Below the pieces are notes generated by a model. It did not search any database, was not told the origin of the DNA, and saw only the letters and a list, made by a program, of their open reading frames with translations. Positions 15,949 through 63,836 of a stretch of DNA of 64,000 nucleotides are shown piece after piece. A program made the position numbers and the translations under genes. This DNA is from Haematococcus lacustris (taxonomy: Eukaryota; Chlorophyta; Chlorophyceae; Chlamydomonadales; Haematococcaceae): positions 9,850,616 through 9,914,615 of the forward strand of contig JASKMD010000026.1 in assembly GCA_030144725.1 (NCBI GenBank). The letters are read 5' to 3'. How positions within the stretch are numbered: position 1 is the stretch's first letter; every line of letters starts with the position of its first letter.

Positions 15949-28896
<12,948 letters not shown>

Positions 28897-45592: not shown

Positions 45593-46794
45593 GCAGCATG
45601 CTGTGGCTGAAGGTGCATATGCAGCGCTGCGCAACACGTCAATAGCCCATGCAGCCTACAGAAAGTCAGACACACGGCTAGGCAACTTCTGATGATCAAC
45701 AATGACCTTATGCAACACGTCAACAGCCTGGGCAGCCCCCTTGTCCCTCACTAGGGCCTCCATTTGAGCCGGATCAGCAGTACCCACTAGCAGCCACTGG
45801 CAACCACTAGCAGCCACTAACTAGATCCGACTCAAACAGTATTATTGGGCTGTGTGGAGTAAACCCAGTGCACATGGCACATGAGCCGCCTACCACCTAC
45901 ACTATTGCCTGACCACGAGGGCAATGTGTAGAGTTGGCATGACAAAACATGCACTAATTGTAAGCTGATGACAGCTCAATAAAAGGGGGCACACACTACT
46001 GTGCCTCAGCAGGCTGCTGCTGCTCCTGGGCCTTGGGGGGCTTGTCTCGCACCCGCTTGTAGCCCAGGCCAGGGTACTCCTTGCCCTTGGCTGGCAGAGC
46101 TCCTGGACAGCCTGGGCAGCCCATGGATGCCTCTAGGTGGCTTCCAATGGCCTTTGTTTTGCTTGACAGCCGGAAGGTGATGGTGTGCATTTAGCTGCTG
46201 CTGCTGCTGCTGCTGCTGTTCCTGCTCTTGGTGCTGCTGCTGGCACTGAGCTGGTGTTTGCGCACAAGATGGCTGCTGCTGCTGGGCGTGACTCGTGGGT
46301 GTGCAGGAGCTGTGTTGTGACCCACACCACTATGACGTCATGCGCACAATGCAAGACCTCGAGGTAACCTCACACCTGACCCTCCTCACACCTGACCCTC
46401 CTCACACCTGACCCTACTCACACCTGACCCTCCTCACACCTCACCCTCCTCACACCTGACCCTCCTCACACCTGACCCTCCTCACACCTGACCCTCCTCA
46501 CACCTGAATCAGTGGCAGAAGATGGTCCAGGGGCGGAGCCAGCTGTGGCAGGTGTGGCAGCACGTGCGCAGCCTTTAATATTCCTCAGTCCATGCATGCC
46601 TTGGTGCCTGTGTGCAGCAAGCGTTAGAGTACCTGTTGGCCAACCACCCCAAGCTGCTATTTGCTGCATTGCCAGCTGCATTTGGTACCTTTTCCAAGGC
46701 ATCCAAGGCAGCCCTTCTGCTGCGCAAGCGACACCAACAGCTGGCGGCGGCATACCAGGCCTCGGACCGTCGTAGTAGAGTAGTAACATCGTAG
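45593..46794 (+). CDS. Candidate 3' exons of the SET gene
   Basis: Three exon-like pieces follow the 45445 donor on the same strand: 45593-45622 (QQQSSMLWLK, phase 0 to 0), about 46194-46363 (Ala-rich, then WVCRSCVVTHTTMTSCAQC, a C-x2-C-x9-C-x2-C ribbon resembling a RanBP2-type zinc finger) and 46618-46794 (QALEYLLANHPKLLFAALPA ... RKRHQQLAAAYQAS, TAG at 46792-46794). The phases around the middle piece do not join cleanly. A Fanzor 3' fragment (45733-46113) lies between the first two. They could also belong to a separate small gene. Confidence 0.35.
45733..46113 (-). mobile_element. Fanzor family A, 3' end fragment
   Basis: Nearly identical to 46967-47340: the last coding codons (KGKEYPGLGYKRVRDKPPKA, stop at 45996-45998) plus the full non-coding 3' end with its inverted arms. 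The match begins at a shared boundary CAGCCCCCTTGTCC and stops abruptly at about 46113, inside the coding sequence. The two copies are only 0.85 kb apart and in the same orientation. Confidence 0.88.
46372..46507. repeat. 16-bp tandem repeat
   Basis: Eight to nine copies of CCTCACACCTGACCCT with few changes, directly after the donor of the zinc-ribbon exon. A looser CACACC-rich run lies at 45468-45565. Confidence 0.9.
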
Positions 46795-46966: not shown

Positions 46967-47228
46967 CAGCCCCCTTGTCCCTCACTAGGGCCTCCATTTG
47001 AGCCGGATCAGAAGTACCCACTAGCAGCCACTGGCAACCACTAGCAGCCACTAACTAGATCCGACTCAAACAGTGTTATTGGGCTGTGTGGAGTAAACCC
47101 AGTGCACATGGCACATGAGCCGCCTACCACCTACACTATTGCCTGACCACGAGGGCAATGTGTAGAGTTGGCATGACAAAACATGCACTAATTGTAAGCT
47201 GATGACAGCTCAACAAAGGGGGCACACG
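46967..47228 (-). ncRNA. Candidate guide-RNA (omega/fRNA) region of Fanzor family A
   Basis: About 260 bp between the Fanzor stop codon (47229) and the shared element end, conserved in the copies at 45733-45995 and 19827-19962. On the Fanzor sense strand it contains 13-bp arms (47070-47058 TTTGAGTCGGATC and 47009-46997 GATCCGGCTCAAA) that pair fully if one U-G wobble is allowed; in the 19.8-kb copy the same position is a C-G pair. The loop repeats AGTGGCTGCTAGTGG twice. Position next to the transposon end fits the place where Fanzor guide RNAs arise; expression is not shown. Confidence 0.5.
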
Positions 47229-50200
47229 CTACTGTGCCTCAGCAGGCTGCTGCTCCTCCTGGGCCTTGGGGGGTTTGTCTCGCACCCGCTTGTAGCCCAG
47301 GCCAGGGTACTCCTTGCCCTTGGCTGGCAGAGCTCCCTGGTCTGGCCAGAAGCACAGCTCCAGTGGCCGCCACCTGCTCTCCCCAATGCGCTGCATGTTC
47401 AATGCTGCATTGCAGTCCCTGTCTACCCACCTGCCTGGCTGTGGTGCTGGCTTGGCTTTGGCTGCCTTGCCCTTGCCCTTGCCCTTGGTGGGCTCAGCTG
47501 CCGGCTTGCTTCGCTTCGCTGGAGGGGGAGTGCTGGGCCCTGGCTCTGAGGCTGCTGGCTGTGTGGCTGCCTGGCTGCTGCGTGGGGCCTGTGGGGGCTT
47601 GCGGGGGGCCACTACAGGGCACCACATCAGGCCCCGCACTGGCTGGCCACGCTCCTGGCTCCAGGCTGGGCGCACCAGGCGGGGTTCCACCTGCCCTGCT
47701 GGTGGCCTCCAGCCTGCAGGCCTTGTGGCACTGCGTTTGTTCAGCTCCACCTCACATGGCTGCTGGCCATTCACCGCTGAGCTGACCCGGCTGGTGCGGT
47801 GCTCATCCACTCATAACGTGTTTCACTCCCCTCTCCTATCTAGCCCTCCAACCTTTTGCGTCCCTAGCTCCTCCGCTTCTCTGGCTTCTCCGCTTCTCGA
47901 GGTCTCTCCCCCGCTCCCTTTAGCTCCCTTCCCCTTCCTTCTCTGAGTTCTTTCTCTCCTAGGTAGTTCCCCTTCTCTTTCCCTTTTTCTCTGTTCTCTC
48001 CTTAGTCTTTTACCTTTGGAGGTTGGCTTGTATCCACCCGAGCCCTACCTCCTTAGTGTAACAACTACTACTACTATCACCACCCTGCCCCGCAGCTGGT
48101 ATGTGCCCCTGGGCCTGCACACCACCTTGCGGCAGGCACGCAACACCGCATCAGCACCCCACCCACCCCCAGTGCCAATGGTAGCAGCGCCAAAGAAGAC
48201 CACCAGCTGCTTGGCACGCTTGTGGCGCTTCATGGACAACTCCGCCATGTCCTCCTCCAACTGCAGCCATGCACACAAGGCACACACATGGTGGCTGACA
48301 TGGTGACACCAGGTTAGGCATGGCACAATCAAGTACTCTTTCTTTTCGTGCCCGACCACCACCTCTCAGTCCCTTACCCTCCCTCCCTCCCACTTACCCA
48401 CCCACCCACCCTCACCTTGTTGAAGAACTGCTCCAGCGCCTGGTCCTGGGCTCCGTACAGCCTCAGCCGCTGCTGTGCCCACTTGGGGTCCAGGTACACC
48501 TCCCACACCGCATCCCAGGTGGCCAGGGTGACGGTGATGTGCTTCAGGTTGGCCCCCAGGGAAGTGCCGGCTGAGCTGGCTGCTGCCAGGTGCTTGAGGT
48601 GGGGCTTGATCGGTGCTAGCCACCGCTCAGTGTCACGGCGGGCATTGTTCAGGCCGCTGCCATGCTTCACCTGGCCCTTGGTCAGCTTCCACCGGCGCAG
48701 CTGGTCTGCCTGCAGCTGGCCTGTTGCTGGATCCCACACCCCAGAGGCTGCGCTGACTGCCTGGGTGACGCCGGGGTCGATGCCCACCCCAATCTGTGTG
48801 TCTGGGTCAAACACAAACTCACGCGTCTCAGCTATGCCCCTGCCTATGTGGGGGTGCCCCACTGCATGAGCCGCTGCTGCTGCTGCACTTGGGCGGCTGC
48901 TGGTGCTGCTGCTGCTGGCAGCTGGAGGTGGGGCTGGAGGAGGGGGAAGGGGGCGCGTGTAGTGCACGCACACGCTGACACCATCTGTGTCCACCAACCT
49001 CTCGAAAGCAAACCCCTTGTTGCGAAGCTTGTTGGTGTTGAACCACCTGGCCCAGTGATGGCTCAGTGCTGGCTGGGAGGTGAAAGCTGCCCGGGTTTCC
49101 TTGGTCAGGCCCAGCTGCCTGCACACCCCATGCAGCACCCTGCTGTCCACCTGGATCAAATGCACCCCCACCCTGGCCATGGGGGTGAGGGTGAAGGGGG
49201 GTGGGCAGGTCAGGGTCCGGGGACCAACCCCACGCCTCTTGCCACGCTTTGGCTGCCCTGGTGCGGGTGGGGTGTGGGGCTGCTGCCACCGCTCTAGCCA
49301 CCGGCACACATGCACTGCATGGCGCAGGCGGCAGGGCAGGGGCAGGGTGTCCTGCAGGGAGCCTTGCTTCTTCATGCCCAGTAGGCGACGGTGCTTGTTG
49401 TCCTCCTCTATCAGGTCCGCCACATGCCCCTTGTCCAGGGTGGAGGCCTTCAGCTCTGAGCTGTGGGCGTTGATGCCATACCCGCACGCCATCCTGATGA
49501 ACAGCTGCGCCTCCTCACCGCTCCAGCCTAGCTGGGCCCTGGCTGCCTTGGCGTACAGCTTGACTATGCGCTCTGCAGGTCAGGTCAGGTCAGGGTCAGG
49601 GTCAGGGTCAGGGTCAGGCTCAGGGTCAGGGTCAGGGTCAGGGTCAGGGTCAGGGTCAGGGTCAGGGTCAGGGTCAGGGTCAGGGTCAGGGTCAGGGTCA
49701 GGGTCAGGGTCAGGGTCAGGGTCAGGGTCAGGGTCAGGGTCAGGGTCAGGGTCAGGGTCAGGGTCAGGGTCGGGTCAGGTCAGGTCAGGTCAGGTCAGGT
49801 CAGGTCAGGTCAGGTCAGGTCAGGTCAGGTCAGGTCAGGTCAGGTCAGGTCAGGTCAGGTCAGGTCAGGTCAGGTCAGGTCAGGTCAGGTCAGGTCAGGT
49901 CAGGTCAGGTCAGGTCAGGTCAGGTCAGGTCAGGTCAGGTCAGGTCAGGTCAGGTCAGGTCAGGTCAGGTCAGGTCAGGTCAGGTCAGGTCAGGTCAGGT
50001 CAGGTCAGGTCAGGTCAGGTCAGGTCAGGTCAGGTCAGGTCAGGTCAGGTCAGGTCAGGTCAGGTCAGGTCAGGTCAGGTCAGGTCAGGTCAGGTCAGGT
50101 CAGGTCAGGTCAGGTCAGGTCAGGTCAGGTCAGGTCAGGTATAAGGTCAGGTATAAGGTCAGGTATAAGGTCAGGTATAAGGTCAGGTATAAGGTCAGGT

Positions 50201-51906
50201 ATAAGGTCAGGTATAAGGTCAGGTATAAGGTCAGGTATAAGGTCAGGTATAAGGTCAGGTATAAGGTCAGGTATAAGGTCAGGTCAGGTCAGGTCAGGTA
50301 TCAGGTCAGGTCAGGTATCAGGTCAGGTCAGGTATCAGGTCAGGTCAGGTATCAGGTCAGGTCAGGTATCAGGTCAGGTCAGGTATCAGGTCAGGTCAGG
50401 TATCAGGTCAGGTCAGGTATCAGGTCAGGTCAGGTATCAGGTCAGGTCAGGTATCAGGTCAGGTCAGGTATCAGGTCAGGTCAGGTCAGGTCAGGTCAGG
50501 TCAGGTCAGGTCAGGTCAGGTCAGGTCAGGTCAGGTCAGGTCAGGTCAGGTCAGGTCAGGTCAGGTCAGGTCAGGTCAGGTCAGGTCAGGTCAGGTCAGG
50601 TCAGGTCAGGTCAGGTCAGGTCAGGTCAGGTCAGGTCAGGTCAGGTCAGGTCAGGTCAGGTCAGGTCAGGTCAGGTCAGGTCAGGTCAGGTCAGGTCAGG
50701 TCAGGTCAGGTCAGGTCAGGTCAGGTCAGGTCAGGTCAGGTCAGGTCAGGTCAGGTCAGGTCAGGTCAGGTCAGGTCAGGTCAGGTCAGGTCAGGTCAGG
50801 TCAGGTCAGGTCAGGTCAGGTCAGGTCAGGTCAGGTCAGGTCAGGTCAGGTCAGGTCAGGTCAGGTCAGGTCAGGTCAGGTCAGGTCAGGTCAGGTCAGG
50901 TCAGGTCAGGTCAGGTCAGGTCAGGTCAGGTCAGGTCAGGTCAGGTCAGGTCAGGTCAGGTCAGGTCAGGTCAGGTCAGGTCAGGTCAGGTCAGGTCAGG
51001 TCAGGTCAGGTCAGGTCAGGTCAGGTCAGGTCAGGTCAGGTCAGGTCAGGTCAGGTCAGGTCAGGTCAGGTCAGGTCAGGTCAGGTCAGGTCAGGTCAGG
51101 TCAGGTCAGGTCAGGTCAGGTCAGGTCAGGTCAGGTCAGGTCAGGTCAGGTCAGGTCAGGTCAGGTCAGGTCAGGTCAGGTCAGGTCAGGTCAGGTCAGG
51201 TCAGGTCAGGTCAGGTCAGGTCAGGTCAGGTCAGGTCAGGTCAGGTATAAGGTCAGGTATCAGGTCAGGTATCAGGTCAGGTCTGGTATAAGGTCAGGTA
51301 TTAGGTCAGGTCTAGTCACCATCATAACTTGCCTGGCTTGGAGTAGTGCTGTTGCATGGCCACCGCCAGCTGCATGGAGTGTGCGTCGATGGTGTTGGCG
51401 TCACCCGCCAGTTTGATGCTGCCCAGCTCATGCAGCTTGGCCAGCAGCGCCTGGTTGCTGGGGTCCTCGAAGGCTGGCATGAGCATGGGGTGGCGGTTGC
51501 GCACAAGGCGCCGCTGCAGCTGGTTGTAGCATGTCTTGAAGCTGGGGTTGGCAAAGAACATGCAGAAGTCCTTGAGCTGCCTCAGCATGACAGGGTCCTC
51601 GCAGTCAAGGGGCAAGGGAGGGCCAGTGGGTGCTGCGGGTGCAAGGGCTGCCAGGCGGGCGCTGCAGCGCCTTTGGGGGGGTTGCGCGACTGGCTCAGGT
51701 TCTGACTCTGACTCCGAGTCAGACTGTGGCTCCAGATCAGATTCACAGTCTGACCCGGAGTCAGAGTCAGTGTCACACTCCATGCTGGCAGGCTGGGCAT
51801 GTGCTGGCTGGGCAGGGGCCCGTGGGGGGAGTGGGGGTAGGGGGGGAGCATCAGGGGGTTGGGGGGGCTGCACGGCCAGCCGGCCGGTCCTAATGCAGTC
51901 ATGAGG
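47229..51906 (-). CDS. Fanzor RNA-guided nuclease (TnpB-like), family A, nearly complete
   Basis: Three exons. Exon 1: from about 51906 or 51783 (start uncertain; first in-frame ATG 51783) to 51333, Ser/Asp/Glu-rich then a helical CYNQLQRRLVRNRHPMLMPA part. Exon 2: 48416-49572. Exon 3: 48260-47229. Exons 1-2 join in phase through a GC-AG donor AG|GCAAGT; exons 2-3 join with GTGAGG. Fanzor/TnpB marks in order: FTLTPMARVGVHLIQVDSRV, FERLVDTDGVSVCVHY (wedge/TDG strand), GVGIDPGV (RuvC-I, D at 48776-48778), LVVFFGAATIG, VDEHRTSRV (E at 47802-47804, matching the rearranged RuvC-II glutamate of Fanzors) and WVDRDCNAALNM (RuvC-III, D at 47415-47417). The TnpB zinc-ribbon cysteines are absent. A 260-bp insertion (47811-48074) carries stops and breaks exon 3, so this copy is probably inactive. 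About 800 codons. Confidence 0.85.
47811..48074 (+). mobile_element. 260-bp insertion in the Fanzor RuvC-II region
   Basis: Absent from the collinear copy at 22460-22480, where RVVLVDEH is continuous. The insert is strongly pyrimidine-rich on the plus strand, begins TCATAACGTGTTTCAC and ends with a (CTA)n run after GTGTAACAA, like a short non-LTR (SINE/LINE) 3' tail. No GT-AG pair removes it while keeping frame. No Pol III boxes seen. Confidence 0.65.
49575..51312. repeat. GGTCA satellite with higher-order variants, inside a Fanzor intron
   Basis: In order: (GGGTCA)n at 49586-49772; (GGTCA)n to about 50136; about 12 copies of the 12-mer ATAAGGTCAGGT to 50280; about 11 copies of a 17-mer (ATC plus AGGTC units) to about 50475; a long uniform (GGTCA)n to about 51243; then mixed ATAAGGTCAGGT/ATCAGGTCAGGT units. 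It fills the intron 49573-51332. The acceptor CTGCAG is at 49573-49578, only a few bases from the first unit. All frames are open; the poly(RSGQV) ORF is meaningless. Confidence 0.97.
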
Positions 51907-52289
51907 CGCGACAATGGCATCAGGCCTCCCCGCTATGACTAGACCCTACAAAGTGATACTGCCTTTTGGTAGCGGTGCTTGCGCTGTCAGACATTGTCTT
52001 AATGTGTAACCGCTGCTTGGACCGCTCCACTGGCTCAGATAGGCATTCCCCTTGGAGGACTCCAACTGTGGGGACAACACCAGGTAGTTGATATGTAATG
52101 GACCTCACTTCCGCCCCACTCCGGTTGCCGGCACTCCGGTTCGATGGCGACCTGATGCACACCCCAACACGGCCACTCCGCTTGGATAATGTAACTAAAT
52201 CCCTGAGATGCCCCCGAGGGGGAATCGAAAGCGCCCCGTCTCCCCCGCACAGAGTGCAGCCGGTAAGCCGCAGAGCTTCACGAAAGGGT
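51907..52289. other. Junction between two Fanzor elements; no gene assigned
   Basis: Lies between the N-terminal exon of the family-A Fanzor and the C-rich tract that precedes family-B RuvC-III. No repeat or protein motif was recognised. It may contain the 5' end of the family-A element or the promoter side of the family-B element. Confidence 0.4.
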
Positions 52290-52652
52290 ATACCACCCCC
52301 CGAAGCTAACTGACGACGCGACCCCCGCCCCCTGCCCCTGCCCAGCCCCCCCCCCCCCCTCCCACAGCCCAGGCCCCCCCTGCCCCTGCCCAGGGGACCC
52401 CCCCCTCCCCCAGCCCAGGCCCCACCCCCTCCCCCAGCCCAGGCCCCACCCCCTCCCCCAGCCGAGGCCCCCCCCCTCTCTGCAGCACCTGGCCCAGGGC
52501 AACGACACCAGACCCCCCCATGGGGCAGGTGGCTGGACCGGGACACCAACGGGTGCCTGAACTTGCAGCGCATTAAGGAGAGCAGGCAGCGCCCCATAGA
52601 GCTGTGCCGCTGGGATGACCTTGAGGCTCTGCCCCCCATTGGCAAGGAGTAC
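52290..52652 (+). mobile_element. Fanzor family B copy, left part (RuvC-III side)
   Basis: After a C-rich imperfect repeat (52320-52490), the frame RWLDRDTNGCLNLQRI (RuvC-III with the normal D-R-D), RQRPIELCRWDDLEALPPIG and KEY ends exactly at the target-site duplication AGTAC (52648-52652) of the chromovirus. The frame resumes at 58949 as QQRYKLVNDRLPKG without loss of a base. The N-terminal nuclease parts are not seen upstream, so this copy too is 5'-truncated. Confidence 0.85.
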
Positions 52653-53086
52653 TGTAGTGGACATGCGCAGCATGGGCGGCTTGCATCTTTTAAACTGACT
52701 TGCATGTCTGATCTGTAGCGAACTGAGTACTTGTTCTTTTCTTGCAATGGATACTTCTGTTGTTCTCTGTGCAAGGTGCTCCGAACCTAGGCGGATGCAC
52801 CGAGCACAGAAGTTCACAGTTTACGTACACCTTTTCCCTTTACACGTGGATGACTAAGAATGTGAATGGTTTTGAGTACTTAAGGCTCTGTGAGGGCAGA
52901 GACAGGTACCTTGGCTCAGAACTCTATCTGACCCCGGGTCCTGTCTCGTTCTCCCGCCCTTACAGGTAAGCCGTGCTCTGTTGGTCATCTCTGCTATGTT
53001 GTAACCTTGGCTCAGAACTCTATCTGACCCCGGGTCCTGTCTCGTTCTCCCGCCCTTACAGGCTCCCTGGTCTCAGCTCCGTTACA
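52653..53086 (+). repeat. 5' LTR of the chromovirus
   Basis: 434 bp, TG...CA. Contains a direct duplication of about 58 bp (52908-52965 and 53004-53061, ACCTTGGCTCAGAACTCTAT...). A strong splice donor (CAG|GTAAGC at 52966) follows the first unit and an acceptor-like CCCTTACAG ends the second (53061), so splicing would remove exactly one unit plus the 38-bp spacer. Confidence 0.95.
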
Positions 53087-53180
53087 TTGGTGCCTTCTCT
53101 CTCGGGAACCGCAGTGCTCTCCCTCGTATCCACCGTTCCTCTCTCCCACTCCGCATTCTCACCGCTAATCCCGCGCCGCC

Positions 53181-54110
53181 ATGAACGCGGAAGAGATCGC
53201 TCAGATGCAACGCGTATTCTCGGAGCAGCAGGCCACAATCCAGCGGCTGGAACAGCAGCTCGCGCAACTGTCCCTGCAGCAAACCACTCCGGCGGCGCCC
53301 ACTCCAGCTCCTGCTCCTGCTCCTCCTCCTCCTCCCGCTACTGCCCCTCAGCCGCGCATGCCTCGCCCCAACCCGCCTTCCACCTTCTCAGGGAGCCGCA
53401 CCACGGATGTGGCGGCTTGGCTATTCGCAGTGGACCTCTTCTTCACAATCTCCGAGCTGACGGACGCCCAACGGATCGTCTACGTCGCCACCCTCCTCTC
53501 CGGCCATGCTCTCCTGTGGTACCGCAGCAGCGTCAGCTCTTTCACCTCCTGGACGTGCTTTGTCGCTGCGTTTGAGCGGCAGTTCGCGCCTGTCAACCGG
53601 CTGCGCCATGCAAGGGACCGCTTGGCAGCTCTCACCCAAACGAGCTCCGTGCGGCGGTACCTTGGCGAGTTCACAGCGCTCTGCCTGGAGGTCACGGACC
53701 TCTCGCCCGCCGAACAGCTCGACCGGTTCATCCGGGGCCTCAAGCCCTCAGTGCGGCGTGAGCTGGAGCTGCGCGAACCAACCTCCTTCTCCGAAGCCTC
53801 CACCATCGCGGATCGGGTGGACGCCATCTCCTATTCCACCTCAACCTCCCGCTCCTCCTATCGCCCTCCCTCCACTCCCCGCCCTCCCCGCCCTGAGACT
53901 GCCGCGGTGCCCATGGAGCTGGACGCCATGCTCCACACCAGCCCAAGCCGCAGCCGTGGCACTCGTCTCTCTGATGCTCAACGTGCGGCTCTGCGGGACA
54001 GCAAGGCGTGCTTCTACTGCCGCAAGACGGGGCACACCATGAAGGACTGCCCCATCCGCCCTCCCCGCCCAAACGTCAGCAGCGGCCCACGGAAGGGGGA
54101 CCGCCGCTAG
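53181..54110 (+). CDS. gag: Gag of the chromovirus
   Basis: About 309 residues. N-terminal coiled coil ([20 protein letters not shown]), a Pro-rich linker, the Ty3 capsid fold ([48 protein letters not shown]) and a single C-terminal CCHC zinc knuckle ([14 protein letters not shown], near residue 278). The start ATG at 53181 is the first good ATG after the LTR and primer site. It ends in TAG at 54108-54110, after the shift site. Confidence 0.95.
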
Positions 54111-57100
54111 ACGTCGCCTTCCGGACCCTCCCACCACCCCCTCCCACCACCCCCTCCCACCCCCTCCCACCCCCTCCCACCCCCTCCCACCACCCCCTCA
54201 CACCCCCTCTCACCACCCCCTCCCAGCCCCTCTGCTTCTCCACCTCCTCTCCTTGTCCTCCCCGGTGCGCTCGTCCCCACCGCGCGCCTTACTTCCTCCT
54301 CCCTGCCCCTGCACCCTCCTACCCTGATCATCATTCCACCTGCCAGCCGTACACTGGTAAGGTGGACACTGCTGGCCGGCCCTCCCTGCAGGTTGTCAGG
54401 TCCATGCCCTTACCCCTGCAGCATGTTAGACCTGCTGGCAGCATTCTGAAGCGGCCTTCTGTGGCTGGCTCCACGCCACCGGGACGACCTCGTAAGGTCG
54501 TGCGGTTCTCCCTGCCCCTACCTGCAGCTCTAGGTGGCAGCCCTCCTCGCTCTCCCCAGCCTGGCCGGACAGCCCGCCCAGCTGTGTTGCATCGTGCCAA
54601 TGCTGATGCACCTGCCTTCCTCCATGTCAACTCCTTTGCCGTGCTGGCTGTTCAGGACCAGCCGCCGGCCGATTCTCTCGCTCCCCGGTCCTTATCTCCT
54701 CCCCCTGCCCCTCCGTGTCCCCCTCCTGCTCCTTGTCCTTCCCGCACCTCCCCGCCCACTCCCACCCCCACCCCTTCCCCCGCTGTTGCGCCCTCCCCCA
54801 TCGTGCTCACTTCCCTGTCTGCCAGTGGCAGCAGCCCATCTTCAGAGCTGATCATCCTCCATGGCACCTTTGCTGGTCACCCAGCCAGGTTCATGGTGGA
54901 CAGCGGTGCCACCGGCAACATCGTCAGCCAGCAGTACCTCATGCGCAATGGGCTGCACTTGGCTACCACCCTCTCCCCCCGTCGCCTCCTCCTCCCAGGC
55001 CCCAAACACACTACCCTACCCACCTACACCCTCCCACCGTGCTCCATCCGCATGGGTACCTACCGCGATCGCTTACAGCTCGCCATGGCAAACATCCCCA
55101 ACCCCTCCTTTGACATCGTCCTCGGCAAGCCGTGGCTGGCAGCCAAGAACCCGTGTGTGGACTGGATCAACAACGTCGTACGCCTGGATCACGCCGGCTC
55201 CACCCACACCCTGACCCCACCCCCACCCACCCCACTCCAAGCGGATCAGCTGAACCTGCTGTCGGCGCCACGCTTCCGCCGGGCAGCGCGGCATGATGAG
55301 GTCTTCATGGCCCTGCTCACCCAGCAGCCCAATCCCTCTACCTCACCCTCTCCCTCCGCCCCTGCCCCTGATCCACCCCCTCTCCACCCCAAGGCGGCAG
55401 CACTGGTGCAGCAGTACCCCACTGTCTTTCCCAAGGAGCTGCCTGCAGTCCAGGACATGCCCCGCCGCTCCGTGGACCACACCATCCATCTCACCGGCCC
55501 TGCCCCCTCCCCCCGTCCGATCTACCGCATGTCGCAGCCAGAGCTGGACCAGCTGAAGAAGCAGTTGGACGACCTCCTGGCCAAGGGTTTCATCCGGCCA
55601 TCCACCTCCCCCTTTGCTGCCCCTGTGTTGTTTGTGCGCAAGAAGGACGGCAGCCTGCGCCTCTGTGTGGACTTCCGTGCCCTCAACCAGCAGACCCTCA
55701 AGAACCGTTACCCCCTCCCCCGCATCGATGATCTGCTGGACCAGCTGTCAGGTGCCCAGGTCTTTTCCAAGATCGACCTCCGGTCTGGGTACCACCAGAT
55801 CAGGGTGGCTGAGGACGACATCCCCAAGACCGCCTTCCGCACCCGGTACGGGCACTATGAATTCACTGTCCTCCCCTTTGGCCTCTGCAATGCCCCAGCC
55901 ACCTTCCAGCAGCTGATGAACGATGTCTTCAAGCCCCACCTGGATGACTTTGTGCTTGTCTACCTGGACGACATCCTTGTGTTCTCCAAGTCAGCCGCTG
56001 ACCACGAGCGCCACCTCCACCTTACCCTCTCTCTCTTGCGGCAGCACCAGCTGTGCGCCAACCTGGCCAAGTGCGCATTCTGGCTGGACACCGTGGACTT
56101 CCTCGGCCACATCGTCTCCGCCGCCGGCATCCAGCCAGACCCCACCAAGGTCAAGGTTGTGCTGGACTGGCCTGCCCCACAGGACAAGCACCAGCTACGG
56201 TCGTTCCTCGGCACCGCCAACTACTACCGGCGTCTCCTACACCACCATGCCCACCGTGTTCTCCCTCTCACCGACCTGCTGCGTGATGAGCAGCCATGGC
56301 GTTGGGGCGAGGCTGAGCAGCGTGCCTTTGCCGACATCAAGGCAGCCATGGCCAGCTCCCCCGTCGTGCGTCCCCCTGACTTCTCCCTCCCCTTCACTAT
56401 CAAGACTGATGCCTCCCTCTTTGCCATTGGTGCCGTGCTTACCCAACAGGACTCCTCCGGCGCCGAGTACGTGGTGGCCTACGAGAGCCGCAAGCTCAAC
56501 CCGGCTCAGGTCAACTACCCAGCCCATGAGCGTGAGCTCCTGGCTGTGCTCCATGCCCTCACCACCTGGCGCCACTACCTACTGGGTCGTCCCTTCATTG
56601 TGGAGACTGACAACAGCGCCACCACCCATGTGCTCACCCAGTCCAACCTCACCGGGCGCCAGATGCGGTGGACCCAGCGCCTTGCGGAGTTCGACATCAC
56701 CTTTGTGCACAAGGCTGGCAAGCACCACACCGTGCCGGACGCCCTCTCCCGTCGCCCTGACCACCAACTCACCGCCCTCTCCATCGTTGACCCTGACCCC
56801 TCCTTCTTCTCCACCTTTGACCGCCATGCGCCCGAAGACCTGGCCTACCAAGCAGCCCTGTCCCAGGCCCTCTCCCCTCCTTCACCCTCCAGCCCTACCC
56901 ACGTGCAGGTCATTGAAGGCCGCCTCTACACCACCTCCACCCCTCCCCGCCTCTACATCCCCTCCTCCCCTCTCCGCGCCCAGCTGTTGCATGAAGCTCA
57001 TGACGCCCACACCGCTGCCCACCTAGGGCGTGCCAAGACTCTGGAGCGGCTGCAGCGTCATTTCTATTGGCCGCAGATGCACAAGACCGTTCAGGAGTAC

Positions 57101-58468
57101 GTGCGCACATGCGACAAGTGCCAGCGCAACAAGGCCACCAACCAGCTGCCCCCTGGCCTGCTGCAGCCCCTCCCCATCCCCTCACGCAACTGGCAGCAGG
57201 TCAGCATGGACTTCATTGGGCCCCTTCCAGCCACTCCCCGTGGCCACACCATGATCTTCACCATCGTCGACAAGCTCAGCAAGATGATCCACCTCATCCC
57301 CACCACCACCACCGCCACCGCTCACGACACCGCCCGCCTCTTCTTTGACCACATCTTCAAGCACCACGGCCTGCCGGAGGCCATCATCTCTGACCGTGAC
57401 CCTAAGTTCACATCTGACTTCTGGACCTCCCTCTTCCACCTCACCGGCACCCGGCTCCTCCTCTCCTCTGCCTACCACCCCCAGACCGACGGCCAGACAG
57501 AGCGCGCCAACCGCACCGTGGAGGACATGCTGCGGCCCTACGTCAACGACCACAAGACTGACTGGGACCAGCACCTTGCAGCCGTGGAGTTTGCCTACAA
57601 CAGCTCTGAGCACGCTGGCACCGGCTTCACCCCCTTCTACCTCAACTACGGCCAACACCCCACCACACCCTCTGCTCTCTTGCTTCCCCCTCCCACCCTT
57701 GTGCCCAGCCAGGCAGCTGAGGACTTCGTCACCTCCATGCGCAACAACCTTACCGCCGCCCGCTCAGCCCTGCAACGCTCCATTGACACCCAGAAGCTGC
57801 ATGCTGACCAGCACCGCCGCCATGAGGAGTTTGAGGTCGGTGATCTGGTGCTGCTCAGCTGTGCCAACCTGAACCTGCAGACTGCTGTCAACAGCGCCAA
57901 GCTCCAGCCTCGCTTTGTGGGGCCTTTCAAGGTCCTGGCCAAGCACTCCCCAGTCTCCTACAAGCTCGACCTCCCTTCCTCCATGCGTATCCTCCCCACC
58001 TTCCACATCAGCCGCCTACGGCCCTATCTTTCCTCCTCCTCTTTCCCTGAGCGCGCCGTGGAGCTTCAGCCTTCGCCCGTGATCATCGATGGCGAGGCGT
58101 ACTTCACGGTGGAAGCCATCCTGGGTCGTCGCTGGAACGACGCGCAGCACGCTTTTCAATACCTCATCAAGTGGGCTGGCTACGATGACTCCTTCAACTC
58201 CTGGGAGTGGGGCCCAGCACTCGCGCAGCAGGACGCGGTCGCCGCCTTGATCCGGGATTACACCGCCCGCCACCATGCCCCAGTTGACGACGACCCTGCC
58301 TGCCAAGTCTGCGCCAGCCGATCACCGCGGCCTCCGATGTTGCTTTGTGATCAATGCGACAAGGGTTTTCACATCACGTGCCTGTCACCCCCACTTCGTT
58401 CTGTGCCTCGTGGTGCCTGGCTTTGTCATCAGTGCAAGCAAGCTAAGGCTCCCAAGAAGCGCAGGTAG
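54008..58468 (+). CDS. pol: Pol of the chromovirus: PR-RT-RH-IN-chromodomain-PHD finger
   Basis: About 1486 codons, -1 relative to Gag. Protease [12 protein letters not shown] (D near residue 298), reverse transcriptase with [10 protein letters not shown] (YLDD near 652), RNase H with [12 protein letters not shown] (near 800), integrase with the H-H-C-C zinc finger (CDKC near 1035), MDFIGPLP (first D near 1068), ISDRDPKF and [13 protein letters not shown] (second D and E). Then a chromodomain (about 1364-1415; [29 protein letters not shown]) and, unusually, a C-terminal PHD finger (about 1432-1477) with C-x2-C-x11-C-x2-C-x4-H-x2-C-x14-C-x2-C spacing, followed by a basic tail APKKRR. Chromodomains guide chromovirus integration to modified histones; PHD fingers also read histone tails. 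Confidence 0.96.
54068..54110 (+). promoter_or_regulatory. Programmed -1 frameshift signal between Gag and Pol
   Basis: The Gag frame reads CGC CCA AAC here, giving the canonical X XXY YYZ heptamer C CCA AAC at 54068-54074. Seven bases later GCGGC (54082-54086) can pair with GCCGC (54103-54107), making a stem-loop just before the Gag stop. After slipping, the Pol frame continues [11 protein letters not shown]. Spacing and heptamer fit the standard -1 frameshift model; not tested. Confidence 0.75.
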
Positions 58469-58509
58469 CATGTTTAGAGGCTAAACATCTTTTTTCCAGG
58501 GGGGGTGAA

Positions 58510-58943
58510 TGTAGTGGACATGCGCAGCATGGGCGGCTTGCATCTTTTAAACTGACTTGCATGTCTGATCTGTAGCGAACTGAGTACTTGTTCTTTTCTT
58601 GCAATGGATACTTCTGTTGTTCTCTGTGCAAGGTGCTCCGAACCTAGGCGGATGCACCGAGCACAGAAGTTCACAGTTTACGTACACCTTTTCCCTTTAC
58701 ACGTGGATGACTAAGAATGTGAATGGTTTTGAGTACTTAAGGCTCTGTGAGGGCAGAGACAGGTACCTTGGCTCAGAACTCTATCTGACCCCGGGTCCTG
58801 TCTCGTTCTCCCGCCCTTACAGGTAAGCCGTGCTCTGTTGGTCATCTCTGCTATGTTGTAACCTTGGCTCAGAACTCTATCTGACCCCGGGTCCTGTCTC
58901 GTTCTCCCGCCCTTACAGGCTCCCTGGTCTCAGCTCCGTTACA
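58510..58943 (+). repeat. 3' LTR of the chromovirus
   Basis: Same length and, as far as can be read, same sequence as the 5' LTR, including the internal 58-bp duplication. It is preceded by the polypurine tract and followed by the AGTAC target duplication. Confidence 0.95.
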
Positions 58944-59217
58944 AGTACCAGCAGCGCTACAAGCTGGTCAATGACCGGCTGCCCAAGGGCAGGCAGTGCT
59001 TGCACCGGGCTGCAGAGTACCGGCGGGGCATCGATGGCCGGGCCCGCAACAATGCATTGGGCCTAGTAGTTTCACACAGGCTGTCAGCCTTACAAAGCAT
59101 AATGCTATTAGTTTTGATGAGGAGCCCAGTGGTCTGTTGGGAAAGTGCCACCAGTGTGGGGTTTGTAGTCATCAAGGGAACGACCGAGGATGCTACAATA
59201 TGTCTGTAGTAGCTGAG
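58944..59217 (+). mobile_element. Fanzor family B copy, right part (tail and 3' non-coding)
   Basis: Continues the frame broken at 52652: QQRYKLVNDRLPKGRQ, HRAAEYRRGIDGRARNNA. The stop found in the 35.9-kb copy (TAA) is TTG here, so the frame runs on into the conserved non-coding region. The segment is cut at 59217, within GCTGAG|TGAGATTACCC, by the second retrotransposon; the final TIR must lie to the right of the window. Confidence 0.85.
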
Positions 59218-59389
59218 TGTTGCGTGATGAGTGGCGGTGATTGAGTTCTCCGTGACAGACTGGGCGTTGTCAGGAAGTCTGCCCGGGAATCGAACCCGGC
59301 CTCAGATCACCTCACCACATCACACTTCTCACAGGGGAGATCCAGATCTCTCAACCGGCATTAGCGTAGCCTTACATGGTCACGTAACA
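59218..59389 (-). repeat. Left (3') LTR of the defective chromovirus
   Basis: 172 bp. On the minus strand it contains GGGTTCGATTCCC, a perfect match to the tRNA T-arm/Pol III B box, preceded by sequence only weakly like an A box (GCCGGTTGAGAG). Confidence 0.92.
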
Positions 59390-59514: not shown

Positions 59515-61041
59515 TCAGGCCTGGGCCTCAGCTTCAACATCATCCTTAGCTTCAGCCTCGCCATCAGCCGCCTCCTCAGCCTCGGCTCTCAGGTTGTGCT
59601 CTGTCAGGTACCTGGCCAACAGCCCTTGGCAGCCCACCAGCTGAGTGCTCAACTCCCACGTGTTATGCTCGTCACCGTGTCCTTGCCACTTGACCAGGAA
59701 CTCAAGCCTTCTCTTCTTGCACTTGCCCTTGCGCTTGCCTTTGCTGGGCTCCAGCCTGTGGCCCACCACCTTCTCCACTGTGTATTGGGGCTCTCCATCT
59801 AGCCACTGCACCGGAGGTGGTCCAGCCAGCCCAGGCACTGCCCCTGAAACATCTGTGCGATAGGGCTTCACCAAGGACACATGAAACACGTTGTGGAGTC
59901 GAGACCACTCATCTGGCAGCCACAGCTTCACCGCTGCCTTGCCCACCATGTACTGCACACTGAATGGGCCCACGTAACGAGGCTTTAGCTTACGGACTCC
60001 AGGCTGGTTAGCCTTACCCCTCATGTTCTGTGTGCTCAGCAGCACCATGTCACCAGGCAGGTAAAGTGCCTCACGCCGTTTGTTCTGATATGACTTCATG
60101 CGCTTCTGCGCCCGCGCTAGGCACTGCCTCGCTTGCTCAACCGCTGTCTTCATGCCCTTCACAAAATCATGCGCCTGCGGCACCTTCTGCGGCAAGTCGA
60201 GCAGCTCAGCCAGCCGCGGATGATAGCCGAAATTCAGGTAGAAGGGCGTGCTGCGGACCGACTCCTGCCAGGCATTGTTGATGGCGAACTCCACCAGAGG
60301 TAAGTACTCCGCCCAGTCCCGCTGGTCAGGCCTGATGAAGTGCCTCAGCATTTCTTCGATTACTCGGTTAACACGCTCTGTTTGGCCATCTGTTTCAGGG
60401 TGGTAGGCGCTGGATAGGTTCACTTGGACCTGGAGCAGCTTGGTCACCTCAGCCCAGAATTTGTTGTGGAACTGGGGTCCTCTGTCACTGACCACACTCC
60501 TTGGCATCCCATGCAGCCGGAACACATGCTCAAGGAACAGCTTGGCATACTGTGTGGCAGTCATGCTCTCCCAGGTCTTCACCAGGTGTACCATCTTTGT
60601 TAGTCTGTCCACAAACACTAATATTGAGTCATATTTGTTGGGCCCACTTGCAGGTAGCTTCACTATGAGGTCCATTGACACGCTGTCCCACGGTCTCTCA
60701 GGTATGGGCAGCGGCTGCAGCAGGCCAGCAGGCTTCTTGGCACTTGACTTGTTCACTTGGCACGAGTGGCAGCTGCGCACATAGCTCTTCACATCCTCTG
60801 ACACACCGGGCCATGTAAACCAGCGCGTCACCTGCTCAAGGGTTTTCGTCATACCCAAGTGACCAGCAGACCTGGTGTCATGCATGGTGTATATCACTTT
60901 CTTCCGTAGCGCAGCGTCATCAGGAACCACCACTCTGCCCCACTCAGTCAGCCACAGCCCCTCATGCTGGTACAGCTGCGATGTGAAGGCCTCATCAGCA
61001 AAGCGTTTATCAGCCGCGTAGGCTTGTTTGATTGCCTGCAT
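59515..61041 (-). CDS. pol: Integrase-chromodomain part of Pol (defective chromovirus)
   Basis: About 508 codons in the same frame as the upstream RT ORF. HHCC finger (HLGMTKTLEQVTRWF, CHSCQVNKSS), catalytic D at SMDLIVKLP, VVSDRGPQF and HPETDGQTERVNR, then a C-terminal chromodomain (QYTVEKVVGHRL, LEFLVKWQGHGDEHNTWEL) and an acidic Ala/Glu-rich tail. There is no PHD finger, unlike the neighbouring chromovirus. The ATG used here (61041) comes 26 codons after the in-frame TAA; it may be a chance internal Met rather than a real start. Confidence 0.93.
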   Translation of the reverse strand: MQAIKQAYAADKRFADEAFTSQLYQHEGLWLTEWGRVVVPDDAALRKKVIYTMHDTRSAGHLGMTKTLEQVTRWFTWPGVSEDVKSYVRSCHSCQVNKSSAKKPAGLLQPLPIPERPWDSVSMDLIVKLPASGPNKYDSILVFVDRLTKMVHLVKTWESMTATQYAKLFLEHVFRLHGMPRSVVSDRGPQFHNKFWAEVTKLLQVQVNLSSAYHPETDGQTERVNRVIEEMLRHFIRPDQRDWAEYLPLVEFAINNAWQESVRSTPFYLNFGYHPRLAELLDLPQKVPQAHDFVKGMKTAVEQARQCLARAQKRMKSYQNKRREALYLPGDMVLLSTQNMRGKANQPGVRKLKPRYVGPFSVQYMVGKAAVKLWLPDEWSRLHNVFHVSLVKPYRTDVSGAVPGLAGPPPVQWLDGEPQYTVEKVVGHRLEPSKGKRKGKCKKRRLEFLVKWQGHGDEHNTWELSTQLVGCQGLLARYLTEHNLRAEAEEAADGEAEAKDDVEAEAQA

Positions 61042-61119
61042 TAGGGTTAAGGGACCCGACTCGGTTGTGGACTGCTCGTCATCACCTTGTTTGTTTGATT
61101 TGTTTTGTGACTCTGTTGT

Positions 61120-63291
61120 TTATTGTTGCTGCCGCAGGGATTCCCCCCCACCTGGCTGCACCTTCTTTTGTTGTGCACTTGTCATTCTTGCCTGGCCAGG
61201 CGTATGGGCAGCAGCCAAATCTTCTGGTGGGACCAGCTGGTTTGCTCTTTGGGCAGCCTCCCGGGCAGCCACCTGCCCCAGCTCAGCATTCTCTCGCAGC
61301 CGGGCAGCAGTGCGGCGTGTAGTTATGGCGTAGACTGGCCTTTCAGCCCGGGAGCTTAGCGTCATGATCACAGTCATGGCGTCTTCATAGTCAGCATTTT
61401 GTGGTGATGATGAGCTTGTTAGCGCCACCTCATTGGCCAGAGCGGGGTTGCGGCTGATAGGGTCAGCCACATTAGTTGCACCGGGTATGTATTTAATCTC
61501 ATACTTGTAGCGTGATAGCTCTTCCATCCATCTGACCTGCCGCCTCGACAAGTTGGGCTGTGTTTGCAGGTAGATGAGGGGATTGTGATCAGTCAGGATT
61601 GTAACATCAACCGCTCCATCCAAATAACACCTCCACTCTCTGACTGCTCTGATGATACCCAGCAGCTCTTGCTCTCCAGTGGCATAGCGCGTCTCAGCTG
61701 GGGACATCTTTTTACTTGTGTAAGCAATTGGCCTGCCATCTTGCATCAGCACTCCACCGGTGCCTACCAGCGACGCATCGGTGCACACTACAAAAGGGTT
61801 GCTAAAGTCAGGCAGAGCCAACACAGGAGCAGAGCAGAGCTCCTCTTTCAGGGCATTAAAAGCTTCCAGCTCAGCCCCCCCAAAGTGTTCCCAGTCATAC
61901 GCAGCAGCCACTTGCTTGCTGGTCAGATTCGTCAACGGCGCAGCCAGAGAGCTGAAGTTGGGTATGAACCGCCTGAAGTAGTTAGCCAGCCCCAAGAAAG
62001 CCTGCAGGTCTTTTAAGTTGCGCGGCGTCGGCCATTCTTTCACGACTTGCACTTTCGCAGGGTCGACAGCAATGCCGTTGCTGCCCACGATGTGGCCCAG
62101 GAACGCCAGCTGCGTCTTGTTGAACTCGCACTTTGCCAGTTTGGCGTAGAACTTGTTTTCTCGCATGAGCTGCAGGACTTGCCTCAGATGCTGCACATGC
62201 TCTTCAGGGGTATTGCTCATCACCAGAATGTCATCAATGTACACCAGCACACACTCATTGATCAAAGGCTTGAACACGTTATTCATCATCCGTTGAAACG
62301 TAGCAGGGGCGTCAGTCAGCCCAAAACAGAGCACCTTGAACTGGAACTGGCCCATTGGCGTCAAGAAGGCAGTCTTAGGCACATCCTCCTCTGTGATCCT
62401 GATCTGGTGGTACCCAGACTGCAGGTCTAGGGAGCTAAACACCCTTTTGCCAGCCAGCTTGTCAAATAGGTCATCAATCCTGGGCAGGGGGTACCTGTCC
62501 CTCACTGTTAGCTTGTTGAGGGCACGGTAATCAATACACATTCTCAGGCTCCCATCTTTCTTTTGCACAAACAAGATTGGTGCCCCGTATGGGCTGCTGC
62601 TTGGCTCAATCAACCCTTTGGCCAGCAGCTCAGCCACCTGCTTCTTCACTTCAGCCTCCTCTCTGGGGCTTAGCTTGTACATACGTTTGTAGGGAGCTTC
62701 AGCCCCGGGTGGTGTCCTGATTGTGTGCCCCACTGGCCTGTTAGGGGGCAACCCCGGTGGCATGTCCCCAAACACATCAGCATACTCAGATAGCAACCCA
62801 TCTAGCACTGCTGGTGGCACTAGCCAGGGGTCCTGCTCAGTCTTCGTGCTCTGCTCACTGCATCGATGCATGGATCCAGCCACTGCAGCTGCTAAGCTGC
62901 CCTGGTGCCAGCCCTCCTGGTCGCCAGCATCGCCAGGTTTCACTAGCATCAGCCAGCTACTGCAGCCTTTCCGCAGTTGTCGCACGGCCTGGCCCGGACT
63001 GAGCAGCTTAATTTCGGCTGCGCTTTCCCACTGCTCCTTCATAGCAGCAACAGCCGCAAACCCAGGCAGATGCTTTGGTTGCAGTGCGAACAAGTTTACG
63101 GGCTTCCCCGACTCTCCAAGTGCCTCAAACAGCGTGCACACCCCGTGCTTTACCTTCAGCACTGCATCGTGCTCGTGCATCCAATTGACACCTAGGATCA
63201 GGTCGACATCATTGAGCATTCCTGGCATGACCACTGCATTGCTATTCGTCTTGCTTTTTTGCACCTCCAGCAGGCCACAACGGCTCTGCAC
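61120..63291 (-). CDS. pol: Protease remnant-RT-RNase H part of Pol (defective chromovirus)
   Basis: About 723 codons. Only the end of the protease is present (VDLILGVNWMHEHDAVL); the DSG active site is missing. RT is complete (KKDGSLRMCIDYRALNK, FSSLDLQSGYHQI, VLVYIDDILVMS with YIDD at residue 351). RNase H is intact (VVCTDASLVGTGGVL, TDHNPLIYL), ending in a Gln-rich linker and TAA at 61120-61122. The start shown is a GTG with an in-frame TAA just upstream, so the natural N-terminus has been lost by deletion or frameshift. Confidence 0.93.
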   Translation of the reverse strand: MQSRCGLLEVQKSKTNSNAVVMPGMLNDVDLILGVNWMHEHDAVLKVKHGVCTLFEALGESGKPVNLFALQPKHLPGFAAVAAMKEQWESAAEIKLLSPGQAVRQLRKGCSSWLMLVKPGDAGDQEGWHQGSLAAAVAGSMHRCSEQSTKTEQDPWLVPPAVLDGLLSEYADVFGDMPPGLPPNRPVGHTIRTPPGAEAPYKRMYKLSPREEAEVKKQVAELLAKGLIEPSSSPYGAPILFVQKKDGSLRMCIDYRALNKLTVRDRYPLPRIDDLFDKLAGKRVFSSLDLQSGYHQIRITEEDVPKTAFLTPMGQFQFKVLCFGLTDAPATFQRMMNNVFKPLINECVLVYIDDILVMSNTPEEHVQHLRQVLQLMRENKFYAKLAKCEFNKTQLAFLGHIVGSNGIAVDPAKVQVVKEWPTPRNLKDLQAFLGLANYFRRFIPNFSSLAAPLTNLTSKQVAAAYDWEHFGGAELEAFNALKEELCSAPVLALPDFSNPFVVCTDASLVGTGGVLMQDGRPIAYTSKKMSPAETRYATGEQELLGIIRAVREWRCYLDGAVDVTILTDHNPLIYLQTQPNLSRRQVRWMEELSRYKYEIKYIPGATNVADPISRNPALANEVALTSSSSPQNADYEDAMTVIMTLSSRAERPVYAITTRRTAARLRENAELGQVAAREAAQRANQLVPPEDLAAAHTPGQARMTSAQQKKVQPGGGESLRQQQ

Positions 63292-63836
63292 GGCTTGTTA
63301 CCTAGCCGTCCCTTAAACAGAAAAGGTAGCTGCAGCCTTCCAGGCTGTACCTCTGCAGCATTCGGTGGTGCATCCATAGCCCCATAGCCGTTCTCTTACA
63401 CGCAGAGTTGGCCTCAAACATAGGCACAAGATCAAGAACTTCTCCCAGGCCAAGTCCGCCTAAACAACAGTTGCAACACTTCGGCTTGCACCTCGGCATT
63501 TCGGCTTGCACGCTCCTGAGTCACGCATCTTCTTCGCACTGAGCCATCACCGGCCTCTCGGCGACTACTGTCACCTCCATCGCCACTCTCGCAGAATAAA
63601 CCTCCGCCGACTGGTTGTACCGCACAAAGGCTCATTAGCCACTGGTTTCCTTCCTCTTCGCTCATCTCAGAGCCCACACACAGCCGTCGCTTCGCGACAT
63701 TTCCACAACTGGCGCACTACAGCCAGTTCCGACTCAACCGCGTTTACACACGCCAACCAGAACGTCCTTTGCCGCTCATCCTCAGGCAGATACGTGGCAA
63801 ATAGATCCAGTCGGACGGCATCGGTCGGAAACCAAC
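63292..63836 (-). pseudogene. Degenerate Gag/leader region of the defective chromovirus
   Basis: Between the right LTR and the RT frame. Short open pieces only (SEMSEEEGNQWLMSLC, RASRNAEVQAEVLQLLF), no capsid motif and no zinc knuckle. A TTGGTTTCC-starting primer-site candidate follows the LTR on the minus strand (about 63835-63820). Confidence 0.6.

Follow-up and report, generated by a model that had tools for sequence, protein, structure and literature searches.

Does a mobile element of the green alga Haematococcus lacustris carry a Fanzor nuclease that lacks the usual zinc finger, and what moves the element? The question is raised by a locus in a 64,000-nucleotide stretch of the H. lacustris genome (hereafter the window; 9850616-9914615 in the 308-Mb assembly), where a preliminary description, made from the sequence alone, had recognized a Fanzor gene. 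We favor, at a probability of roughly 0.6, the view that the locus is a broken copy of a high-copy element that carries the gene for a Fanzor1-like nuclease without the zinc finger, and that the element is mobilized in trans by a helper. The element's sole recognized gene is Fanzor1-like: its set of RuvC motifs is intact, and it has no C4 zinc finger. Published work is cited by PubMed Central (PMC) accession.

The Fanzor-like gene and its zinc-finger region

GVGIDPGV, VDEHRTSRV, WVDRDCNAALNM, and the TDG strand LVDTDGVSVCVHY are present in order on the minus strand of the window, as the preliminary description had reported, and the three RuvC acidic residues that it listed are indeed encoded there (codons GAC, GAG, and GAC). 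The features of this copy are:

46967..51886, minus strand: Fanzor-like element copy, 5'-truncated, with a 5' junction in common with genome copy L009 and an exact 3' terminus
51340..51886, minus strand: exon 1 remnant, which matches the relative P0097 from residue 107; the 3' splice point is approximate
49576..51287, no strand: GACCT/AGGTC pentamer satellite of 1.7 kb, which fills intron 1
48416..49572, minus strand: exon 2, which holds the TDG strand and the RuvC-I DPG
48776..48778, minus strand: RuvC-I aspartate, codon GAC, in GVGIDPGV
48261..48415, minus strand: intron 2, with GT...AG ends, which joins exons 2 and 3
47229..48260, minus strand: exon 3, with the stop codon at 47229-47231, split by an insert
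47812..48072, minus strand: the insert, about 261 bp, which breaks the frame ahead of the RuvC-II glutamate
47802..47804, minus strand: RuvC-II alternative glutamate, codon GAG, in VDEHRTS
47772..47783, minus strand: position of the first zinc-ribbon pair, with Ser (AGC, 47781-47783) and Val (GTG, 47772-47774) replacing Cys-x2-Cys
47415..47417, minus strand: RuvC-III aspartate, codon GAC, in WVDRDCNAALNM

Because exon 2 is open across 401 codons and has 103 genomic matches, the gene exceeds what chance would give. The preliminary description considered it near-complete and divided it into three exons. Three exons do remain, and the ends of intron 2 fit, but the copy is not near-complete: its match to P0097 begins only at residue 107, and about 106 N-terminal residues that relatives have upstream are missing. 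Because the copy is 5'-truncated, the three-exon layout is only what remains of the gene. The 260-bp insert that was said to break the copy is there: relative to L009, which is continuous, the window copy has about 261 extra bases. They occur in none of 20 other copies, and a search of all fetched loci matched only the window's own locus (L001). The database model P0001 bypasses the insert with a longer intron, at the cost of conserved sequence that precedes the glutamate. We reject the reading of the insert as a genuine intron, which this model suggests, since relatives read straight through. The GACCT satellite in intron 1 is apparently shorter in L009 and in L010, another genome copy.

The gene belongs to a large family. 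A search of the genome with exon 2 as the query gave 7611 candidates at first look, and 103 of these were scored; the family counts are lower bounds. All 103 (the window copy included) match at 90-100% identity. By hand count, 65 of them have no internal stop and 38 do. Twenty of the 103 were fetched, chosen by protein score and the absence of internal stops. Among database proteins, exon 2 gave 469 matches with E up to 0.01 (from 8000 candidates), and a longer relative gave 697 matches with E up to 1e-10; in both searches the best 120 matches, which are the ones listed, are all from H. lacustris. A query from a second subfamily, aimed at other species, found 97 proteins, all of them from H. 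lacustris, and no relative turned up in the viral contigs that we searched.

We counted motifs in 227 fetched database proteins. RuvC-I was located in 161 of these and reads IDPGV in 141. RuvC-II was scorable in 185, and the glutamate is kept in 183; RuvC-III was located in 180, with [LV]DRDCNA in 160. We also aligned two subfamilies that are about 40% identical (79 rows, of which 61-77 carry letters in a given column). Across this alignment, the acidic triad is conserved at 96% (D), 99% (E), and 99% (D), the DPG motif at 96% (D), 97% (P), and 99% (G), and the RD motif at 100% (R) and 99% (D).

According to PMC10711439, Fanzors are told from TnpB by a DPG at RuvC-I and by a glutamate six residues before the first Cys of the finger. 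In our family the spacing from the glutamate to the first position of the finger is this exact one (E-HRTSRV-S), and the Cys itself is absent. PMC3627910 defines the Fanzor order as D-x(125-275)-[TS][TS]...RD. In the protein P0124, 187 residues separate D513 and T701, which is within this range. The distance from the finger to RD (5-50) is undefined without a finger; 66 residues lie between WC (C759) and RD (R826) of P0124.

The preliminary description had stated that the zinc-ribbon cysteines were lost in both copies that it saw, and the loss turns out to be far wider. None of the 185 scorable proteins has a Cys at either position of the first pair, and 174 have Ser/Val. A looser motif pattern, later run on 317 proteins, gave 289 instances: one Cys is present in three, which are skipped or rearranged gene models, and two Cys in none. 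In the two-subfamily alignment, Ser and Val are 99% conserved each, and two other cysteines (in QPCE and WC) are 97-98% conserved. The second subfamily (A6), at about 40% identity, has the same Ser/Val arrangement, and a third sequence, 28% identical and found within one protein (P0314), has FRTSRVSSA as well. Similar FRTSRVSSA proteins are probably common in other volvocine algae. Across the family, the C4 finger is replaced by other strictly kept residues. Literature listings, as far as titles and the starts of abstracts go, contain no description of zinc-less Fanzors that we could find. The zinc-less target nucleic acid-binding (TNB) region would probably still hold the RuvC lid and the target strand, by means of the conserved SSxV...QPCE...RGxxWC module.

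Could the loss of the cysteines simply reflect decay, with the copies dead? The copy in the window has both a truncation and an interruption, the full set of 15 motif blocks stands in order in only 6 of the 227 database proteins (many of the rest being fragments or fusions), and stops are present in the 38 exon-2 matches mentioned above. These stops, and the choice of the 20 fetched copies by score and open frame, also count against the preferred reading. But decay would scatter the substitutions, and instead Ser/Val is found at the rate given above and again in a subfamily that is about 40% identical. Also, 65 of the 103 matches are free of stops. The median ratio of nonsynonymous to synonymous substitution rates (dN/dS) for exon 2 is 0.28 (210 pairs), and this low value speaks against decay, although the 21 copies compared had been picked for an open exon 2 and for protein score. 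We think that decay is very unlikely.

Another explanation is that the protein is a zinc-less and catalytically idle descendant of a Fanzor that serves the element as an RNA- or DNA-binding factor. The lost feature is one that Bao and Jurka (2013, PMC3627910) call "strictly conserved" in Fanzors, and a long low-complexity linker precedes RuvC-III, both of which are consistent with an idle protein. However, an idle site would not need its acidic residues, which are 96-99% conserved in two subfamilies. This makes an idle protein unlikely, although less so than decay.

The least probable explanation is that the gene is unrelated to Fanzors and that its motifs are due to chance or convergence. The profile search that the preliminary description had proposed as a check came out divided, and we list first the results that count against a Fanzor. 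The window exons, searched singly against Pfam and NCBIfam, have no TnpB or Fanzor match, and for PF07282 there is none with E up to 1. Searches of PDB with phmmer and with profiles gave no credible match. The single models P0015 and P0025 match PF07282 at E of only 0.03-0.04, and the three proteins above the cut-off (P0211, P0172, and P0178) are fused gene models in which the domain occurs several times. On the other side, PF07282 is found with E up to 1 in 9 of the 25 members of alignment A1 (best 9.7e-5), and the precomputed database annotation marks it in six proteins from the search with the longer relative. The best stretches of PF07282 fall on the RD-x-N motif in most of the matching proteins. 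Furthermore, DPG, the glutamate at x6, TS-R-V, RD-x-N, and the TDG strand occur in order and with Fanzor-like spacing. Structure prediction, another check that the preliminary description had proposed, decides for neither side: AlphaFold models of P0124, from 61 and 79 sequences, had a predicted local distance difference test (pLDDT) score of only 45.9 and 47.1.

The PF07282 match weakly supports a Fanzor-like identity as predicted from sequence, and the order of the motifs, the DPG, the position of the alternative glutamate, and RD-x-N support it. The earlier assignment to the Fanzor family is supported in these features, and the C4 finger is missing, as that description had noted. The finger is ascribed to "many" Fanzors by Yoon (2023, PMC10711439). 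Because strict membership in the Fanzors, as Bao and Jurka drew them, fails on the zinc finger, we file the gene as a Fanzor-like variant.

Ends, target sites, and the putative mobilizing enzyme

The window contains three copies of the element that stop at the identical base, ...GGACAAGGGGGCTG, and whose flanks are unrelated. The terminus of the main copy is 46967, which is exactly the lower bound of the region in the preliminary description. The two other copies are:

45733..46103, minus strand: copy B, 371 bp, 5'-truncated, with the same 3' end and a 10-bp target-site duplication (TSD) after GGCTG
19822..19952, plus strand: copy C, a 131-bp solo 3' end with the same terminus

The main copy (A) and copy B share 98% identity along 371 bp, which makes the earlier view of a recent family member plausible. 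The common 3' end is present in 18 of the 20 fetched genome copies (17 in a first scan, plus L014 in a second); L010 and L028 have no such end downstream of exon 2. Most of the longest copies measure about 3.6-3.8 kb and are ragged at the 5' end; others are 5'-truncated, down to solo 3' ends.

We listed 32 of these 3' ends. For 17 of them, TSDs were tested with swapped pairs as the control, and 12 more were tested without a control; the three that were omitted are the window copy itself, one that is an internal repeat of L012, and a variant end from L024. A TSD of at least 8 bp was found for 12 of the 17 copies, as compared to 14 of 272 swapped pairs, although for one of these, L018, the match is flanking sequence of a second copy. 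L015, L016, L020, L022, and L026 lack a TSD of that length. Among the 12 further ends, six have a TSD and the other six have none of 8 bp.

At 13 of 16 sites with TSDs of at least 8 bp, the motif GRCTG lies immediately before the duplication (background 0.6%). The exceptions are L017, L021, and L023, and all 16 sites have G at -5. (We omitted L018, whose 20-bp match comes from the sequence beside a second copy, and, because of a CTG repeat, window copy C.) In the chance matches from swapped pairs, CTG precedes only 1 of 14. The element's own final five bases are GGCTG. The sharp common 3' end, the TSDs, and the target motif GRCTG are new here.

L018 and L020 each seem to have inserted directly after the 3' end of a copy that was already there and that itself offers a GGCTG target motif. 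Three 3' ends in one locus (L024:7553, L024:7774, and L024:4484) have a near-identical core of 22 bases and a different hairpin upstream, which suggests a single terminal module common to several families of elements.

The window copy can be read as a 5'-truncated insertion because L009, which has the same 5' junction, has a TSD there:

51887..51900, minus strand: target motif GACTG (51896-51900), then CATTAGGAC, the TSD of the L009 insertion

What enzyme could do this? A different enzyme, one with a cut site after GRCTG, would mobilize the element in trans, and it would most likely be a Helitron-like rolling-circle Rep that acts in a one-ended manner. Rolling-circle enzymes cut the donor and the target after the same short motif. 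We prefer a Helitron-like helper because GGCTG stands both at the element's 3' terminus and at the target. We set aside the idea that GRCTG is the Fanzor's own target-adjacent motif (TAM), as the element's own end carries GGCTG.

Alternatively, the element might be a non-autonomous retroposon that is copied by the reverse transcriptase of a long interspersed nuclear element (LINE), by target-primed reverse transcription, with the Fanzor-like gene as a passenger. The 3' end of the RNA (CUG) would anneal to a primer that ends in CAG at the nick. A constant 3' end, 5' truncation, and TSDs of 8-13 bp are all what a retroposon would leave behind, and it would also account for the CTG that is common to the target and the element's end and for the 3' stem-loop. 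However, in every one of the 20 fetched copies the exons are far enough apart for intron 2 to fit between them, which a spliced RNA would not produce. Also, the bases at -4 and -5 lie outside the primer, yet G is invariant at -5. No LINE with this 3' end turned up, although no search aimed at LINEs was made. We regard the retroposon as doubtful, and we continue with a Helitron-like helper.

The 3' end as RNA and the reading as a whole

Could the constant 3' end also function as an RNA? In the window copy, this part of the element is:

46967..47086, minus strand: structured 3' end, with a long hairpin, a CCCU/AGGG hairpin, and a possible CAGCCC/GGGCUG closing stem; it ends ...GGGGGCTG

The last 125 nt of the window copy fold at -59.6 kcal/mol (z of -4.16), and 1 of 200 shuffles was as good. 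Across the aligned copies, the closing stem, the long hairpin, and the CCCU/AGGG hairpin have 95.9% of their cells paired, versus 36-51% when the partners are slid. Shuffles of the 3' letters average 94.6% paired; the observed percentage and the covariation score were each reached by 1 of 500 shuffles. An Rfam scan gave only microRNA-like matches, under the gathering scores and on an acidic repeat. We consider the long hairpin to be well supported, and the closing stem has weaker support. The last 120 nt are likely to have a conserved fold, with mixed results from the controls.

By analogy with Fanzor and TnpB systems, the protein might be an RNA-guided nuclease whose guide RNA is derived from the structured 3' end. 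The 3' end would then be the scaffold, and the flanking DNA after GGCTG would be the guide.

Putting these together, we tentatively propose that a branch of algal Fanzors may have abandoned the finger, rebuilt its TNB region on SSxV...QPCE...RGxxWC, and spread to high copy number, with 5' truncation, after GRCTG, and that its 3' end may be both the guide scaffold and the insertion terminus. This full version is possible but more doubtful than not. If it is true, then the many solo 3' ends are all potential guides.

Several results weigh against the preferred reading, that of a Fanzor1-like gene in an element mobilized by a helper, or against its RNA part. No Helitron or other transposase has been tied to the element's ends, and a genome search for one was not completed. 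The longest duplication at the ends of the window copy is 7 bp, which is short of the 8 bp required of a TSD. The left duplication is separated from the shared start by 40-195 bp of other sequence in six copies (L011, L012, L013, L021, L024, and L025). If GRCTG were the TAM, then the right junction (GGCTG) would be a self-target. For the RNA, the sole compensatory pair is one in the long hairpin, which changes from G-C to U-A in 7 of 23 distinct rows; for pairs that are changed on both sides, 492 of 500 shuffles reach the observed number. Without constraints, RNAalifold recovers the long hairpin, pairs the last bases otherwise, and gives a small covariation term.

The surroundings of the locus and known systems

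Other parts of the window also contain pieces of this family and other mobile elements:

22342..23001, plus strand: further fragment of the same Fanzor-like gene, from RuvC-II to the C-terminus
52314..52652, plus strand: C-terminal piece from the second subfamily (WLDRDTNGCLNLQRI), which a long terminal repeat (LTR) element cuts
52653..58943: Ty3-type LTR retrotransposon; its two LTRs, each of 434 bp, show 100% identity, and it has a gag open reading frame (ORF) and one open pol of 1497 codons with a chromodomain and a PHD finger
59518..63297, minus strand: second Ty3-type pol, in two ORFs of 534 and 725 codons

About 1 kb of the 5' flank of the window copy is common to L009 and L010, which are on the same contig, and the 3' flank differs. 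The shared 5' flank region (51887-59219) is now split by the first of the Ty3-type elements, which sits at a 5-bp AGTAC duplication inside the flank shared with L009 and which probably inserted recently. For a duplication that would explain the differing 3' flanks, we found no TSD near window position 59219.

The H. lacustris proteins P0052, P0178, P0207, P0211, and P0225 in the database are fused pieces of the element, some of them with other domains. The family is thus a practical annotation problem, as many of its database proteins are fragments or fusions. Also, motif searches that demand CxxC...CxxC, such as the one in PMC10711439, would miss zinc-less members. If the family is active, then its Fanzor nucleases do not need the structural zinc found in others, and they would show which part of the TNB domain is dispensable. 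And with sharp 3' ends, TSDs, and a target motif, the mobility of Fanzor elements, which was raised in 2013, becomes directly testable in a commercially grown alga.

In another alga, Auxenochlorella, an uncharacterized Fanzor element is the most abundant repeat, according to PMC12633428. Among the papers listed, this is the only one with both Fanzor and Haematococcus, and it mentions them in unrelated sentences.

Among the better-known relatives, the TnpB proteins of IS200/IS605 and IS607 have the same order of the RuvC triad and the RD-x-N-A-A motif (the end of PF07282). The H. lacustris family differs from them by its DPG and alternative glutamate, by its introns, by the absence of the finger, and in that we saw no linked TnpA. 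In the Fanzor1 protein SpuFz1 (PMC10432273 and PMC11423790), the D-E-D triad is shared, with its glutamate in the loop before the TNB domain. In contrast to our family, SpuFz1 has a CCCC zinc finger in the nuclease (NUC)/TNB domain, and the Haematococcus proteins gave no sequence-profile match to it. The guide RNA of SpuFz1 comes from the 3' region of its element, and in published Fanzor loci the flank acts as the guide (PMC10432273). GtFz1 has Asn as the third catalytic residue, unlike the D-E-D of our family.

The closest parallels are CRe-1, CRe-2, and CRe-3 of Chlamydomonas reinhardtii, which are described in PMC3627910 as Fanzor1 elements with an overabundance of 3' ends, 5' truncation, and TSDs of about 7-19 bp. 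These "one-ended" Helitron2/Fanzor1 elements insert after TTTT, whereas the Haematococcus family uses GRCTG, which is a further point against the preferred reading. Also, the C4 finger, which the same paper calls strictly conserved in Fanzors, is absent from the Haematococcus family. On the other hand, the CRe elements and the Haematococcus family share a multi-exon Fanzor1-like gene, a common 3' end, an overabundance of 3' ends, many copies, frequent 5' truncation, TSDs, and extra sequence after some of the 5' TSDs.

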